64,000 bases of DNA. It comes from an uncultured Mycobacteriaceae bacterium (GTDB lineage: Bacteria; Actinomycetota; Actinomycetes; Mycobacteriales; Mycobacteriaceae). Every line of letters begins with the position of its first letter. The first letter of the stretch is position 1. The stretch spans positions 20,930-84,929 of the forward strand of contig CADEGF010000028.1 of assembly GCA_902826815.1 (NCBI GenBank). Reading direction: 5' to 3'. Of the stretch, positions 2,177 through 7,687 are shown piece by piece. The notes under the pieces are model-generated. The model searched no databases and had not been told where the DNA came from. It saw nothing but the letters and a program-made list of their open reading frames with translations. The position numbers and the translations under genes are program-made.

Positions 2177-2260
2177 ACAGCGTATTTCATATTCGGCTAA
2201 CGGTTGCTCAACGCGGCAGGCGCAAAGTTTCAGCATCATCGAGTTGAAGGAGGAATGGAA

Positions 2261-3100
2261 ATGACCACCAGGATTGACGCCGACCGCGAACTCAAGGCCA
2301 AGCACCGCGCGCTGTGGGCATCCGGCGACTATCCGGCCGTCGCGGCCGAGCTGATTCCCGCATTCGGCCCCGAGCTCGTCCGCGCGTGCGGCATGAAGGT
2401 AGGCGACCGCGTCCTCGACATCGCCGCCGGATCGGGTAATGCCGCGATCCCCGCCGCGGAGACCGGCGCGATGGTCACGGCCAGTGACCTCACACCGGAG
2501 CTCTTCGACGCGGGACGGCGCATCGCCGCCGCGCGCGGTGTCGAGCTGGAATGGGTGGAGGCCGATGCCGAGGCGCTGCCGTTCGCCGACGACAGCTATG
2601 ACGTCGTGTTGTCTTCTGTCGGTGTGATGTTCGCACCGCACCACCAAGCGGCCGCCGACGAGCTGATCCGAGTCTGCCGGCCCGGCGGAACCATCGGATT
2701 GATCAACTGGACGCCGCAGGGCTTCATCGGCAACCTGTTCAAGACGATGAAGCCGTACGCGCCGCCGCCACCTCCCGGTGCCAGCCCGGCGCCGTTGTGG
2801 GGCGACGAGGACCACGTCCGCGAGTTGTTCGGCGACCGGGTGAGCGGCCTCGAGCTGCGACGCCAGGAGATCGTGATCGACTACAGCCCGACGCCCGAGG
2901 AGTTCCGGGAGTACTGGAAGCGAAACTACGGCCCGACGATAGCGGCGTACAAATTCAACGTCGATGACGCCGAACGGGTTGCGGCCCTTGACCGCGACTT
3001 CCTGGCGTTGCTCACGGAGTGGAATCGCTCAACCGGGCCGGGTAAGACGGCCTACCACGCCGAATATCTGCTCGTCACCGGAAAAAAGCGCGAGCGGTAG
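2261..3100 (+). CDS. class I SAM-dependent methyltransferase
   Basis: A protein of 279 residues with the Rossmann methyltransferase motif I (VLDIAAGSGNAAIP, about residue 50), an acidic residue at the end of strand 2, and the post-I motif DSYDVVLSSVGVMF, typical of the UbiE/MenG-like superfamily. The substrate cannot be read from sequence. The ATG at 2261 is chosen because GAAGGAGG (2246-2253) lies 7 nt upstream; an ATG at 2255 is too close to that site. A strong inverted repeat 18 nt after the stop (3118-3146) could end the transcript. It may be controlled by the preceding regulator, but that rests only on adjacency. Confidence 0.85.
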   Translation: MTTRIDADRELKAKHRALWASGDYPAVAAELIPAFGPELVRACGMKVGDRVLDIAAGSGNAAIPAAETGAMVTASDLTPELFDAGRRIAAARGVELEWVEADAEALPFADDSYDVVLSSVGVMFAPHHQAAADELIRVCRPGGTIGLINWTPQGFIGNLFKTMKPYAPPPPPGASPAPLWGDEDHVRELFGDRVSGLELRRQEIVIDYSPTPEEFREYWKRNYGPTIAAYKFNVDDAERVAALDRDFLALLTEWNRSTGPGKTAYHAEYLLVTGKKRER

Positions 3101-3117
3101 GGCATCCGACCGCGGTG

Positions 3118-3159: not shown

Positions 3160-3489
3160 GTGGAGAAGCCCGTGAAAGAGCTGCTGGTCGAGCGTGCGTC
3201 GTCGGCATTGGCCGATGTCGACACCGTCGGCTGGACCGTGCGCTTCGATCTGCTGTCGGATCCCAACCGGCTGGAGATCCTGCTGTGCCTACACCGGGCA
3301 CCAGGGATCTGCGTCGGGGATCTGGCCGCGGCGCTCGGACGCTCTGAAAACGCGGTATCCCAAGCGCTTCGGGTGCTTCGGCAGCAGGGCTGGGTAACGT
3401 CCACCCGCGCGGGCCGGGAGGTCAGCTATCGACTCGAGGACGAGATCGTCCACGAGCTGCTGCACCGCATCGGCGCTCAGCACGGCTGA
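3160..3489 (+). CDS. ArsR/SmtB-family winged-helix regulator
   Basis: About 109 residues with a single ArsR-type winged helix: DLLSDPNRLEILLCL (helix 1-2), VGDLAAALGRSENAVSQALRVLRQQGWV (helix-turn-helix with recognition helix), and the wing TSTRAGREVSYRLED. The family senses metals, thiols or other small molecules. A single Cys (CVGDLAAAL) and His residues near the C-terminus (VHELLHRIGAQHG) could bind a metal, but the site is not obvious. GTG 3160 and GTG 3172 are both possible starts; GGAGAAG just before 3172 favours either weakly, and the far-upstream GTG 3115 would read through a hairpin. It is a neighbour of the KmtR cobalt/nickel locus; a metal role is inferred from this only. Confidence 0.8.
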   Translation: MEKPVKELLVERASSALADVDTVGWTVRFDLLSDPNRLEILLCLHRAPGICVGDLAAALGRSENAVSQALRVLRQQGWVTSTRAGREVSYRLEDEIVHELLHRIGAQHG

Positions 3490-3710: not shown

Positions 3711-3735
3711 TATTATCTGCGTATGAATGCGGATA
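3711..3735 (+). promoter_or_regulatory. kmtR leaderless promoter and candidate self-operator
   Basis: A -10 hexamer TATTAT (3711-3716) lies 6 nt before the kmtR ATG (3723), so transcription would begin at the start codon. An imperfect inverted repeat (arms TATCTGCGT and ATGCGGATA, two mismatches, 4-nt centre, 3714-3735) overlaps both the -10 and the first codons. Binding there would block RNA polymerase, which is how ArsR-family repressors usually control themselves. Confidence 0.45.
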
Positions 3736-4103
3736 GTGGCGAACGCGCGCGGCTGCCTGATGACCAGGTGACGCTTGTCGTCGAGATCTTCCGCATGCTG
3801 GCCGATGCCACTCGTGTGCACGTGCTGTGGCTGCTGGCCGATCGCGAGCTGTCCGTCAACGAGCTCGCCGAAGAGATCGGAAAACCCGCGCCGTCGGTGT
3901 CGCAGCACCTGGCGAAGCTGCGGATGGCGCGTCTGGTCCGCACCCGCAGGGCGGGCACGACGATCTACTACAGCCTGGAGAACGACCACGTCCGACGGCT
4001 GGTCGTCGATGCCGTCTTCAACGCCGAGCACGCGGGCCCAGGGGTGCCGCGTCATCACCGTGACTCCCGCGACCTGCACATCGTGGAGCAGGACAGTTCG
4101 TGA
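3723..4103 (+). CDS. kmtR: KmtR-type nickel/cobalt-sensing ArsR repressor
   Basis: A 126-residue ArsR/SmtB regulator nearly colinear with M. tuberculosis KmtR as I recall it: LPDDQVTLVVEIFRMLADATR, SVNELAEEIGKPAPSVSQHLAKLRMARLV (helix-turn-helix), RTRRAGTTIYYSLEN (wing), and a C-terminal tail AEHAGPGVPRHH carrying the His residues used for metal binding. KmtR releases DNA on binding Ni(II) or Co(II) and in M. tuberculosis represses a cation-efflux gene and itself. Here it precedes a His-rich peptide gene by 21 nt and a CbiM-type importer by about 330 nt, so it probably controls cobalt/nickel handling locally. The gene appears leaderless. Orthology is from memory of the sequence, not a search. 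Confidence 0.85.
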   Translation: MNADSGERARLPDDQVTLVVEIFRMLADATRVHVLWLLADRELSVNELAEEIGKPAPSVSQHLAKLRMARLVRTRRAGTTIYYSLENDHVRRLVVDAVFNAEHAGPGVPRHHRDSRDLHIVEQDSS

Positions 4104-4124
4104 ATCAACGAGAGAGGGATCGAT

Positions 4125-4328
4125 ATGACCGAACAGCACAGCCACGACGAGGCTCATGTGCACGAACACAGCCATGGTGGCGACACCCACTCCCACGCGC
4201 ATAGCGCCCATGACCACGAGCACGTCCAGCACGAGCACTCGCACTCGCACGACGGCGGGGCCGAGCACACGCATGAGCACGTGCACCAGTCAGGGCTCGA
4301 GACGGAGCACGCGCACGCCCATTCGTAG
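4125..4328 (+). CDS. histidine-rich metal-binding peptide
   Basis: A 67-residue protein with 23 His (34%), mostly in HxH and HEH units separated by Ser, Asp, Glu and Ala; no Cys, no signal peptide, no membrane segment. The composition resembles Hpn-like or metallochaperone tails that bind Ni(II), Co(II) or Zn(II). AGAGAGGGA (4110-4118) gives a good ribosome site for the ATG. It follows kmtR by 21 nt on the same strand and stops 16 nt before the palindrome that precedes cbiM, so it is probably cotranscribed with kmtR and serves as a cytoplasmic store or buffer for the metal imported by the next genes. Function is inferred from composition and context. Confidence 0.75.
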   Translation: MTEQHSHDEAHVHEHSHGGDTHSHAHSAHDHEHVQHEHSHSHDGGAEHTHEHVHQSGLETEHAHAHS

Positions 4329-4343
4329 GGTTAACAACCTCTC

Positions 4344-4365
4344 CATCTGAACAGCTAGACAGATG
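4344..4365 (+). promoter_or_regulatory. 22-bp palindromic operator upstream of cbiM, shared with sodA
   Basis: CATCTG and CAGATG are perfect 6-bp arms around AACAGCTAGA. Reading in the direction of the downstream gene, 20 of 22 bases agree with the site upstream of sodA (7666-7687, minus strand). It ends 70 nt before the likely cbiM ATG. Two nearly identical palindromes in a 64-kb window, both in front of metal-related genes and in the same orientation, suggest a common regulator. Confidence 0.65.
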
Positions 4366-4435
4366 AGAAGGTCGCGGCATAACCTGAGCTGTGCCCGGCA
4401 CCGAGTTCTCCGCCTCCACTGTCAGCTTCTCCGCG

Positions 4436-5122
4436 ATGCACATGAGCGACGGCATCGTCAACGCCCCGACTTCTCTGGGCTTCGGCGTGCTCGCCATCGT
4501 CGCCCTGGCGGTCTGCGCGTGGCGCGCCCGCTCTGAGCTCGACGAGAGAACCGTCCCGTTGGCAGGCCTTGTCGCCGCATTCATCTTCGCGGTCCAGATG
4601 GTCAACTTTCCGATCCTGCCCGGCGTCAGCGGACACCTGCTGGGTGGCGCGTTGGCCGCGATCCTGGTCGGCCCGTTCACCGGCGCCCTGTGCGTGGCGA
4701 TCGTGCTTGTCGTGCAGTCCCTGCTGTTCGCCGACGGCGGTGTGACGGCACTGGGCACGAACATCACGAACATGGCCCTCATCGGCGTCGCCGCGGGCTA
4801 CTCGACAGCGGTGCTTCTCTATGCGGTCGCCCGACGTCGCCGCGGCGACGTGCCGGTAGCCGGACTCGGCGTCATCGCATTCATCGCGGCGGTGGTGGGA
4901 ACAGTCTGCGCATCAATGGGATTCGTCATCGAGTACGCGCTCGGCGGGGCGGCGACGACGTCGCTGGGCACAGTGGCGAGCTATATGCTCGGCACACACG
5001 TTCTGATCGGAATCGGTGAGGGTGTGATCACTGCGCTCACTGTCATGGCCGTGGCCAGGGCCCGGCCAGATCTCGTCTATCTGTTACGGAGTTCACGCGT
5101 CGACGCGGAGGTGTCGGTATGA
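4436..5122 (+). CDS. cbiM: CbiM-type ECF cobalt/nickel transporter substrate-binding membrane subunit
   Basis: 228 residues with about seven hydrophobic segments and the CbiM signature MHMSDGIVNAP at the start and FPILPGVSGHLLGGALAAIL inside. In CbiM/NikM the free N-terminus and His at position 2 coordinate the metal, which argues for the ATG at 4436 although the frame is open back to a GTG at 4391 and no clear Shine-Dalgarno is seen. CbiM binds Co(II) or Ni(II) in the membrane and works with CbiN-like, CbiQ and CbiO subunits, all encoded directly downstream; its stop overlaps the next ATG (ATGA at 5119). A palindrome at 4344-4365 probably regulates the operon. Whether the ion is cobalt or nickel cannot be decided; cobalamin genes 7 kb away favour cobalt, KmtR allows both. 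Confidence 0.88.
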   Translation: MHMSDGIVNAPTSLGFGVLAIVALAVCAWRARSELDERTVPLAGLVAAFIFAVQMVNFPILPGVSGHLLGGALAAILVGPFTGALCVAIVLVVQSLLFADGGVTALGTNITNMALIGVAAGYSTAVLLYAVARRRRGDVPVAGLGVIAFIAAVVGTVCASMGFVIEYALGGAATTSLGTVASYMLGTHVLIGIGEGVITALTVMAVARARPDLVYLLRSSRVDAEVSV

Positions 5123-5484
5123 CTGCCACTTCGTCGCAGCATCGCTGGCTGTTCTGGATCGGCTTCGCAGTCGTCACCTTGATCGTCGCGGGCGGCGTCT
5201 CCTACCTCGCGAGCCCCAGTCCGGACGGACTCGACTCGGTGACCCTGAAGGGTTGTCAAGTCGTCGATGTCAACGGAACGGAAGAACTACAGGGCAGCTG
5301 CATCGCGCAGCACGCCGACAACCACGCGATGTCCGGCTCGCCGCTCGCTGACTACGCGATCGGCGGCAAGGACGGCACGGGTGGATTGGCAGGCATCGTC
5401 GGCGTTTTGGCGACCGTCGCGCTCGCAGGCGGTGCGTTCTGGCTGATCTCGCGGTCGAAGTCCAAATCGACCGTTGGTGACTGA
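5119..5484 (+). CDS. PDGLE-domain CbiN-like subunit of cobalt/nickel importer
   Basis: 121 residues with two transmembrane helices (about residues 13-32 and 92-112) flanking an extracytoplasmic loop. The loop starts with PSPDGLDSV, the PDGLE-type motif found in CbiN/NikN-like small subunits fused to or placed beside CbiM. Two Cys and one HADNH cluster lie in the loop. The ATG overlaps the cbiM stop (ATGA), and cbiQ follows after 2 nt, so translation is coupled. The family stabilises the CbiM substrate site during ion loading. Confidence 0.82.
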   Translation: MTATSSQHRWLFWIGFAVVTLIVAGGVSYLASPSPDGLDSVTLKGCQVVDVNGTEELQGSCIAQHADNHAMSGSPLADYAIGGKDGTGGLAGIVGVLATVALAGGAFWLISRSKSKSTVGD

Positions 5485-5486
5485 CC

Positions 5487-6260
5487 GTGGGTGCCGGTCA
5501 CGCGCATCCGCTGTACCGTGACGGCGACTCACCGCTGCATCGCGCGCCCGCCGAGGTCAAGATCGTCTGCCTGGTCGTCTTCGTTCTCGCGGTCGTCGCG
5601 ACGCCCCGTGATTTGTTCTGGCCCTTCGCGGTGTACGCCGCGATCATCCTGCTCGTCTGGCGAATCGCGCAGATTCCGCTGCGCTGGATTCTGCCGCGGA
5701 TGCTGATCGAGGCTCCGTTTCTGATACTCGCTGTGCTGCTGCCGTTCTCGGAGGGGGGCGAGCGCGTACAGTTCGCCGGCATGCACCTTTCGGTAGCGGG
5801 GCTTTATGCGGCGTGGGGGATCGTCATCAAGGGCACGCTCGGTGTGGCGGCTTCGCTGACGGTGGCCGCCACCACGTCGGCCAGGGAGCTCCCACTTGGG
5901 CTGAGCAGATTGGGTGTTCCTGCCGTGATCACGTCCATGCTGGTGCTGATGATCCGCTACATCGATGTGCTCACCGCGGAAGCGAGTCGCATGCGGATGG
6001 CCAGGATATCGCGCGGAGACTCACCGCGTGCAATCCATCAGGCCGGAGCGATCGCGAAAAGTGTTGGTGCGCTGTTCCTTCGGTCCTACGAGCGAGGCGA
6101 ACGGGTGTACGTGGCGATGCTGTCCCGTGGCTTCGACGGCAGCGTGCCGGACCTCGCGATGGGCACAGATGGTCGCGCCGGAGCGCGGCAGTGGTCGGTG
6201 GCGATGCTGCCTGCGATCGCGGCGGTGACGGTCGCCGCGTCGGCCTGGATGATGCGATGA
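5487..6260 (+). CDS. cbiQ: CbiQ-type ECF transporter transmembrane coupling protein
   Basis: 257 residues starting at GTG 5487, with hydrophobic segments at about 25-60, 65-85, 100-130 and a terminal helix. It has the EcfT coupling-helix signature with Ala-Arg-Gly-type residues, here MRMARISRGDSPRA and ERVYVAMLSRGFDG. It transmits ATP hydrolysis in CbiO to the CbiM subunit. GTG follows the PDGLE gene stop by 2 nt, and its own stop overlaps the cbiO ATG (ATGA at 6257). Length and motif order are normal for the family. Confidence 0.87.
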   Translation: MGAGHAHPLYRDGDSPLHRAPAEVKIVCLVVFVLAVVATPRDLFWPFAVYAAIILLVWRIAQIPLRWILPRMLIEAPFLILAVLLPFSEGGERVQFAGMHLSVAGLYAAWGIVIKGTLGVAASLTVAATTSARELPLGLSRLGVPAVITSMLVLMIRYIDVLTAEASRMRMARISRGDSPRAIHQAGAIAKSVGALFLRSYERGERVYVAMLSRGFDGSVPDLAMGTDGRAGARQWSVAMLPAIAAVTVAASAWMMR

Positions 6261-6997
6261 AAACGCCGAACGCAATCGACATCGAGGGTCTGCGACATGT
6301 CTATCCCGACGGACATGTCGCTCTCGCAGGCCTTGACCTGACGATCTCAGCGGGGGAGCGGGTGGCGGTGCTCGGCCCAAACGGTGCAGGCAAGACCACC
6401 CTGATGCTGCATCTCAACGGCGTGTTGTCGGCCACCTCGGGATCGGTCAAGATCAGCGGAATATCGGTGAACCGCAAGACTCTTCGCGATATCAGGCCGC
6501 GCGTCGGCCTGGTTTTCCAGGATCCCGACGATCAGTTGTTCATGCCCACCGTGGCGCAGGACATCGCATTCGGCCCCGCGAACTTCGGCCTGAGGGGTGA
6601 CGCGCTGGCCGAACGCGTGCGCAGGGCACTGGAAACCGTGTCGTTGACCGATCAGGCAGACCGCAGCCCCGCGCACCTCTCGGCCGGCCAGCGGCGCAGG
6701 GCAGCGCTCGCCACGGTGCTCGCGTGTGAGCCCGAGGTCCTTGTGCTCGACGAGCCGTCTGCCAACCTCGATCCGTTGGCCCGGCGCGAGCTCGCCGAGA
6801 CCTTGAGGGGCCTGGATGCCACCATGCTGATCGTCACCCACGACCTGCCGTACGCGGCGCAACTGTGTGACCGAGCGGTTGTGATGGCCGAAGGCGTCGT
6901 CGTCGCCGACGGCCCGATCAACGAGATCCTCAACGACGCACCGCTGCTCGAGGCCAACCGACTTGAACTGCCTTGGGGTTTCGTCGCACCACGCTAG
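6257..6997 (+). CDS. cbiO: CbiO-type ATPase of cobalt/nickel ECF transporter
   Basis: 246 residues with Walker [10 protein letters not shown] (about residue 38), Q-loop [13 protein letters not shown] (the DPDDQ form is typical of CbiO/EcfA), signature [12 protein letters not shown] (Ala replaces the usual Gly), Walker [14 protein letters not shown] and switch His IVTHD. It powers the CbiM/Q complex. The frame extends far upstream to 5813, but that part is out-of-frame cbiQ; the ATG at 6257 overlaps the cbiQ stop. It ends one codon-length short of the convergent sodA stop (6994), with a 4-bp overlap of the two genes. Confidence 0.9.
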
Positions 6998-7614
6998 AAG
7001 ATCAGGCCCTGTGCCTTGCCGGTCGCAGCGTTGAACCGATCCTGCACGTCGACCCAGTTCACAACGTTCCAGAAGGCCTTGACGTAGTCGGCCTTCACAT
7101 TCTTGTACTGCAAGTAGTAGGCGTGTTCCCACATGTCGACCTGGAGCAGCGGGATGATGCCGAGGGGCACGTTGGCCTGCTGGTCGTACAGCTGGAACGT
7201 GAGCAGACGCTGACCCATCGTGTCGTAGCCGAGTACGGCCCAGCCCGACCCCTGCAGTCCGTTCGCGGCGGCGGTGAACTGCGCCCGGAACTTGTCGAAC
7301 GATCCGAACTGGTCGTCGATTGCGGCGGCCAGTTCTCCGGTCGGCTTGTCACCGCCGTTGGGGGACAGGTTCTTCCACCAGATCGAGTGGTTGACGTGAC
7401 CGCCGAGGTGGAATGCCAGGTTCTTCTCGTTGAGGAAGATCGCGCCGTGGTCGCCGTTGGCGCGTGCCTCTTCCAGCTTGGCGATCGCGTCGTTGAGACC
7501 CTTCACGTACGTGGCGTGGTGCTTGCCGTGGTGGATCTCGTTGATCTGGCCGGATATGTGCGGTTCCAGCGCGCCGTAATCGTAGTCCAGGTCAGGCAGG
7601 GTGTACTCGGCCAT
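6994..7614 (-). CDS. sodA: manganese/iron superoxide dismutase
   Basis: 206 residues of the Fe/Mn SOD family: N-terminal [19 protein letters not shown] with metal-ligand His, HGKHHATYV (His ligand region), and [15 protein letters not shown] (Asp and His ligands). It converts superoxide to peroxide and oxygen. The residue equivalent to His145 of the M. tuberculosis iron enzyme appears to be Gln here ([11 protein letters not shown]), which in related mycobacteria accompanies manganese use; that is a memory-based inference. No signal peptide. The ATG at 7614 has AGAGAGGAAC 5-6 nt upstream; longer versions of the frame lack a start with a ribosome site. A palindrome 52 nt upstream (7666-7687) matches the one before cbiM. 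The gene converges with cbiO. Confidence 0.93.
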
Positions 7615-7665
7615 GAAGTTCCTCTCTGATCTTCCATTCGCGGTCTCTCTTCTGCAGCCTACAGA

Positions 7666-7687
7666 CATCTGTCCAACTGTTCAGATG
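7666..7687 (-). promoter_or_regulatory. 22-bp palindromic operator upstream of sodA
   Basis: Read toward sodA it is CATCTG, then AACAGTTGGA, then CAGATG; flanking bases extend the pairing to 7-bp arms (ACATCTG/CAGATGT). It matches the cbiM site at 20 of 22 positions in the same orientation. It sits 51 nt upstream of the sodA start, within the likely promoter region. Candidate binders are the ArsR proteins nearby or a Fur/Nur-family protein elsewhere. Confidence 0.65.

Follow-up and report, generated by a model that had tools for sequence, protein, structure and literature searches.

A 22-bp palindrome before nickel/cobalt importer genes and sodA in mycobacteria, a likely operator of a small nickel regulon

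In Streptomyces coelicolor one nickel regulator, Nur, governs both nickel import and a superoxide dismutase (SOD) of the Fe/Mn family, and a nickel SOD (NiSOD) is also present (PMC3919588, PMC7055735). In Streptomyces griseus an ArsR/SmtB protein, that of the SrnR/SrnQ system, is tied to the nickel control of a Fe/Mn-family SOD gene (PMC7055735). Mycobacteria have the ArsR-family sensors NmtR and KmtR, which respond to nickel and cobalt, control efflux and release DNA on binding metal (PMC7055735, PMC10961391). Here we describe a 22-bp palindrome that is present twice in a 64,000-nucleotide stretch of DNA (the window) from an uncultured Mycobacteriaceae bacterium, once before the cobalt/nickel importer gene cbiM and once before sodA, the gene for a Mn-type SOD.

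We consider it likely that this palindrome serves as operator for a small nickel regulon. A nickel-sensing ArsR protein encoded at 3160-3489 would, whenever NiSOD has enough nickel, repress both MnSOD and the import of nickel. Comparison across the genus supports this. The operator is kept among relatives, sits on the -35 box of importer promoters, is found near one particular ArsR gene and marks nickel importers; in most of the NiSOD genomes examined it also marks sodA.

Such a regulon would resemble that of Nur in placing nickel import and a Fe/Mn-family SOD under a common operator, in bacteria that also have NiSOD. Unlike Nur, which is a member of the Fur family, the candidate here is of the ArsR family, the palindrome is different and the SOD is Mn-type; by analogy, the mycobacterial system may work like Nur without belonging to the Nur family. 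With SrnR it shares the link between an ArsR/SmtB-family protein and a Fe/Mn-family SOD, but here importers stand under the same operator, and SrnR was not among the solved-structure matches of the ArsR protein at E<=0.001. It also differs from ArsR/SmtB metalloregulators with efflux or detoxification targets, since its targets are importers and sodA. A search of titles and abstract beginnings in the open literature, with subscription papers mostly outside its scope, found no description of the ArsR regulator, the operator or a mycobacterial NiSOD regulon.

The palindrome, its promoters and its distribution

Operator 1, CATCTGAACAGCTAGACAGATG, precedes cbiM on the plus strand and operator 2, CATCTGAACAGTTGGACAGATG, precedes sodA on the minus strand. 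The locus contains the following features, given by position in the window.

3160..3489, plus strand: ArsR-family regulator, the proposed sensor and repressor, which passes the cut-offs of HTH_5 and NF033788; its longest frame begins at 3115
3723..4103, plus strand: ArsR gene that we take to be KmtR-like; the genome has two such genes, and this one is an unlikely regulator of the operator
4125..4328, plus strand: small His-rich frame, 67 codons long, that separates the KmtR-like gene from operator 1; known from sequence only
4344..4365, plus strand: operator 1, 35.9 bits by the site matrix, to whose 11 training sites it belongs
4356..4361, plus strand: TAGACA, -35-like box inside operator 1, 18 bp before TAACCT
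4380..4385, plus strand: TAACCT, -10-like box of cbiM, a TANNNT from the 15th base after the site
4391..5122, plus strand: cbiM, substrate component of a Co/Ni ECF importer (PF01891, 4.8e-55)
5119..5484, plus strand: cbiN, CbiN-type PDGLE domain (PF13190)
5487..6260, plus strand: cbiQ (PF02361; TIGR02454 over cut-off)
6257..6997, plus strand: cbiO ATPase (PF00005; best matched by ECF ATPase models, which stay below cut-off)
6994..7614, minus strand: sodA, Mn-type Fe/Mn SOD (PF00081/PF02777), with YDQQ at the metal-selective position, whose Gln we presume to indicate the Mn type
7656..7661, minus strand: TAGGCT, -10-like box of sodA, 4 bp after operator 2, against a usual gap of 13-14 bp
7666..7687, minus strand: operator 2, 30.3 bits by the matrix, which was trained without sodA sites; 51 bp separate its end from the sodA start codon

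The sequence-only reading had described two 22-mers identical at 20 of 22 bases, with CATCTG/CAGATG arms and the same orientation relative to their own genes, in front of two convergent genes. All of this proved correct when re-checked on the sequence; cbiO extends to 6997 and sodA to 6994. That reading had also held chance or a repeat to be less likely as the source of the pair, and the counts agree: the window contains exactly two matches at up to three mismatches with the three central bases free, where 0.02 are expected, and none of 100 shuffles contained two. Nor is the motif scattered. In the 6.87 Mb genome (141 contigs) the two 22-mers are the only copies at up to two mismatches, and the whole-genome scan for further regulon members yielded none beyond one three-mismatch match within a reading frame (L003).

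Is the palindrome kept elsewhere in the genus? Our survey covered 198 genomes, the source genome included. A match at up to three mismatches is present in 111 of them, and the reversed control gave 18 genomes. Thirty loci were taken from this search; the site adjoins an importer or sodA in 13 (cbiM in eight, sodA in three and a NicT-type nickel permease, which passes its equivalog cut-off, in two), and many of the other 17 are three-mismatch matches. An orthologue of the ArsR protein, set off by a sharp boundary (E <1e-37, the next ArsR matches being at about 1e-13 or worse), is encoded in 106 genomes. Orthologue and match occur together in 93 genomes, the orthologue alone in 13, the match alone in 18 and neither in 74; for the orthologue and cbiM the corresponding numbers are 62, 44, one (G174) and 91.

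The usual gene order is ArsR, operator and nickel/cobalt importer (cbiMNQO or NicT), with the ArsR gene and importer several kb apart in some genomes, such as G011 and G065. Among 39 ArsR loci that were fetched, 36 have a transporter, preceded by the operator in 35; a scan of the three without one (G054, G012, G182) found no site. A named set, the best 80 of 159 confirmed loci and partly overlapping the numbered genomes, includes Mycolicibacterium agri, M. stellerae, M. vaccae, M. aurum, M. litorale and others. There the operator is present in 67 of the 68 loci with a downstream transporter. In the remaining 12 the stretch examined contains no transporter, although L243 among them has a site. 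The site matrix was built from 11 importer sites and none before sodA, and the transporter counts are less independent than the sodA counts because transporter sites partly trained it. In another genus of the family (g9) all three loci have the order ArsR, operator, cbiM; the one locus examined from genus g10 (L194) has neither the operator nor that cbiM arrangement. Comparison with relatives, which the sequence-only reading had called for, finds the motif kept before both cbiM-type importers and sodA.

Solute-binding proteins appear to be further targets. In G132, G062, G041 and G084 the beginning of a long frame is overlapped by the site, and in G076 a comparable stretch is found some 200 bp away from it. 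Three of the proteins (L217, L218, L220) are SBP_bac_5 by Pfam, and for the two run against NCBIfam the best model was the nickel protein NikA, below its cut-off.

In most of 73 sites, bases 13-18 spell T[A/G]GACA. The 14th or 15th base downstream of the site opens a TANNNT box in all 36 transporter sites and in all 67 of the named set, and the gap between -35-like and -10-like boxes is 17-18 bp in 36 of 36 transporter sites. Because the -10 box follows at a fixed distance, the operator covers the -35 box of the importer promoters. A protein bound there would block this box, and therefore repression fits this geometry better than activation. The palindrome looks like a conserved operator. Its half-sites around TGAACA/TGTTCA resemble the smt operator; a text search of the literature for the smt operator string gave no match, and the likeness was set aside.

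The first possible cbiM start is the GTG at 4391. The cbiM mRNA is perhaps leaderless, since the promoter would begin its RNA at about this base. At the other end of the locus the convergent 3' ends of cbiO and sodA share 4 bp (6994-6997), and so their RNAs may overlap.

The sodA site and NiSOD

The source genome encodes a NiSOD outside the window (TIGR02753, 130 bits against a cut-off of 90) with the nickel hook HCDLYCGVY. NiSOD is present in 78 of the 198 genomes, 76 of which have the ArsR orthologue; 30 genomes have the orthologue only, two NiSOD only and 90 neither.

The site before sodA follows this distribution. In genomes with both NiSOD and ArsR a site of at least 14 bits precedes 41 of 46 sodA copies (38 of 41 genomes), and 35 copies have at least 20 bits. 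In ArsR genomes without NiSOD it precedes none of 34 copies, the highest score being 7.8 bits, and in genomes with neither it precedes none of 21 copies, hand-picked among the 90 such genomes, where the highest score is 0.0 bits. The set of 46 copies represents 41 of the 76 genomes with both, and the set of 34 represents 28 of the 30 with ArsR only. The best score among 20 shuffles of each upstream sequence, which keep base content only, was 13.65 bits. The scanned stretch was 500 bp, or 627-766 bp in L063, L064, L066, L067 and L085, where it was widened to include neighbouring ArsR genes. A Markov sequence of 1 Mb contained one site of at least 14 bits.

Some genomes seem to be dispensing with MnSOD. 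NiSOD is present in 19 of the first 20 of the 34 sodA-less genomes. In four NiSOD-positive genomes (G155, G103, G024, G150; L223, L225, L227, L228) the sodA matches are no more than fragments, preceded by a site of 23-33 bits, and draft assemblies could contribute to this fragmentation; it is as if MnSOD were being lost there behind an intact operator.

The arrangement around sodA also varies. ArsR paralogues are divergent from sodA with the site between them in G171, G183 and G054, and in G038 the order is sodA, ArsR, site, cbiM. On a 35-row mtr tree, NiSOD presence requires seven changes (at least four forced) and the sodA site four. A separate sodA clade under the operator was looked for in a FastTree of 27 sequences, which has no such split; Gln is at the metal-selective position in 26 of the 27, the exception being G029.

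Two NiSOD types can be told apart by the nickel hook in the proteins compared (L040-L045, L166, L232, L233): HCDLYCGVY in G000, G171, G052 and G026, and HCDLPCGVY in G005, G062, G108 and G086. To our knowledge, Tyr in place of Pro in this hook is unusual.

The operator itself was not found at sodN of the source genome, the best score over the surrounding 9 kb being 1.0 bits. Pairing of the s-SodF kind between the sodA 3' RNA and the sodN start, looked for in the source genome only, gave a longest match of 9 nt, and 30 of 200 shuffles gave one as long.

The ArsR protein at 3160

The product of 3160-3489 belongs to the ArsR family by PF01022 (HTH_5; 37.6 bits, cut-off 22) and NF033788 (76.4, cut-off 55). 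Its structure model, which served for fold class only, has the order helix-helix-helix-helix-helix-strand-strand-helix (mean pLDDT 85.9) and is ArsR-like. In an alignment of 53 rows, in which some genomes are duplicated, H113 and H117 are present in 53, Asp109 in 50 and H123 in 48. The canonical alpha-5 motif of SmtB and CzrA is D-x-H-x10-H. The ArsR protein does not fit this motif: none of the alignment rows shown has a His two residues after Asp109, and the conserved histidines 113, 117 and 123 are spaced differently, which also sets the protein apart from NmtR and KmtR. NmtR is among its solved-structure matches (1.3e-10), and the KmtR-like protein of the window matches SrnR at 5.6e-8. The ArsR protein at 3160 is the best candidate for the regulator, ahead of KmtR and of any protein of the Fur/Nur type.

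The KmtR-like gene and the His-rich frame (3723-4328) separate the ArsR gene from operator 1. The other KmtR-like copy of the source genome is on contig 35; in other genomes such genes lie near cbi genes (G038, G040, G055, G083, L302). A putative methyltransferase-like gene, at 2255-3100 in the window, is a frequent neighbour of ArsR/importer loci in the genus.

Proposed mechanism and alternatives

In the proposed regulon ArsR would bind the operator as a dimer. With sufficient nickel in the cytosol, the nickel-loaded protein would repress import by cbiMNQO, NicT and NikA-like systems together with MnSOD, whose work NiSOD could then do. When nickel is scarce ArsR would leave the DNA, import would rise and MnSOD would stand in for unloaded NiSOD. 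The cell would thus probably choose its antioxidant enzyme by nickel supply. That nickel is the metal, the direction of the response and the binding by ArsR are inferences, put forward as probable. The use of the metal as co-repressor, the reverse of usual ArsR logic, is the least certain step. We also lean, with less assurance, towards a wider history in which mycobacteria evolved their own nickel switch for SOD: an ArsR of reversed logic with a non-canonical His site would have replaced Nur and recruited sodA where NiSOD is present, and in some lineages MnSOD would have decayed to fragments behind an intact operator.

Several observations weigh against this proposal. In usual ArsR/SmtB proteins metal binding releases the DNA and the genes controlled are for efflux (PMC10961391, PMC7055735). 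Thirteen ArsR genomes have no match at up to three mismatches; in five of these (G002, G013, G127, G161, G176) the matrix does find sites. A match without ArsR occurs in 18 genomes, a number close to the reversed-control rate. The operator is absent before cbiM in G055, the sole exception among the 36 loci, and in L302, where a 21-bit site precedes a second importer instead. Strong sites with no adjoining importer or sodA exist (L014, L022, L023, L221, L224, L236), perhaps relics of lost targets; some adjoin small secreted proteins or a sigma-factor-like frame. At sodA, six of the 41 sites score only 14-20 bits, the TANNNT box is at its usual place in just 18 of 37 sites, and in the window the -10-like box is atypically spaced. 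No sodA site was found in three genomes with NiSOD and ArsR (G062, G108, G086), all of which carry the HCDLPCGVY-type NiSOD, or before the second sodA copies of G034 and G136. NiSOD occurs without ArsR in G026, where it is of the common type, and in G005, which is 84% complete. Finally, the mtr tree provides three independent contrasts, agreeing 2.5 times on average with none opposed, which are not significant, three being too few and the species being related.

Could the same ArsR act on the same regulon with the usual logic? The metal-free protein would then repress and metal release it, or metal-free ArsR would activate import and sodA. This is typical behaviour for the family (PMC10961391, PMC7055735), and it is the foremost of the alternatives, but we think it unlikely. 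In all 36 and 67 transporter promoters the operator sits on the -35 box, where an activator site would not typically be; the targets are importers, and switching them on with nickel would be maladaptive; and the sodA link is seen only where NiSOD exists.

Cobalt rather than nickel might be the sensed metal, with control of SOD a by-product of the common operator. The cbiMNQO system is named a cobalt importer and the related sensors NmtR and KmtR respond to both metals (PMC7055735). This we regard as improbable, as the site is common to NicT and NikA-like importers and the sodA site tracks NiSOD, an enzyme that needs nickel.

It is more improbable still that KmtR or a protein of the Fur/Nur type is the regulator, even though a KmtR-like gene stands directly before operator 1 and Nur fills such a role in Streptomyces (PMC3919588, PMC7055735). 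KmtR-like proteins, found in 142 of the 198 genomes, are absent (E<=1e-30) from at least eight operator-bearing genomes (G011, G064, G067, G076, G027, G028, G020, G054) and present in many without the ArsR orthologue. Neither of the two Fur proteins of the source genome is encoded near cbi or sodA; one adjoins a katG-like frame and the other an ArsR frame, presumably the settings of FurA and Zur. Chance or a dispersed repeat, for which it may be said that the source genome has two copies only, can hardly be credited given the rate of one site of at least 14 bits per 1 Mb of Markov sequence and a site kept before orthologous genes throughout the genus.

Repression by nickel-loaded ArsR therefore remains our preferred explanation. 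A link between nickel or cobalt uptake and SOD, Nur-like but independent, had been suggested by the sequence-only reading, and the comparative evidence for a common operator supports it. To this the present analysis adds the NiSOD of the genome, the NiSOD-linked sodA site, the NicT-type and NikA-like importers with the same operator, and the ArsR protein at 3160 as candidate. If the proposal is true, mycobacteria would hold a second solution, from another regulator family, to the problem of NiSOD versus Fe/Mn-SOD, and an ArsR-family protein would govern metal import instead of efflux. The regulon would predict when environmental mycobacteria use NiSOD, and the genus would offer a natural series of promoter-site gains and losses that tracks enzyme content.

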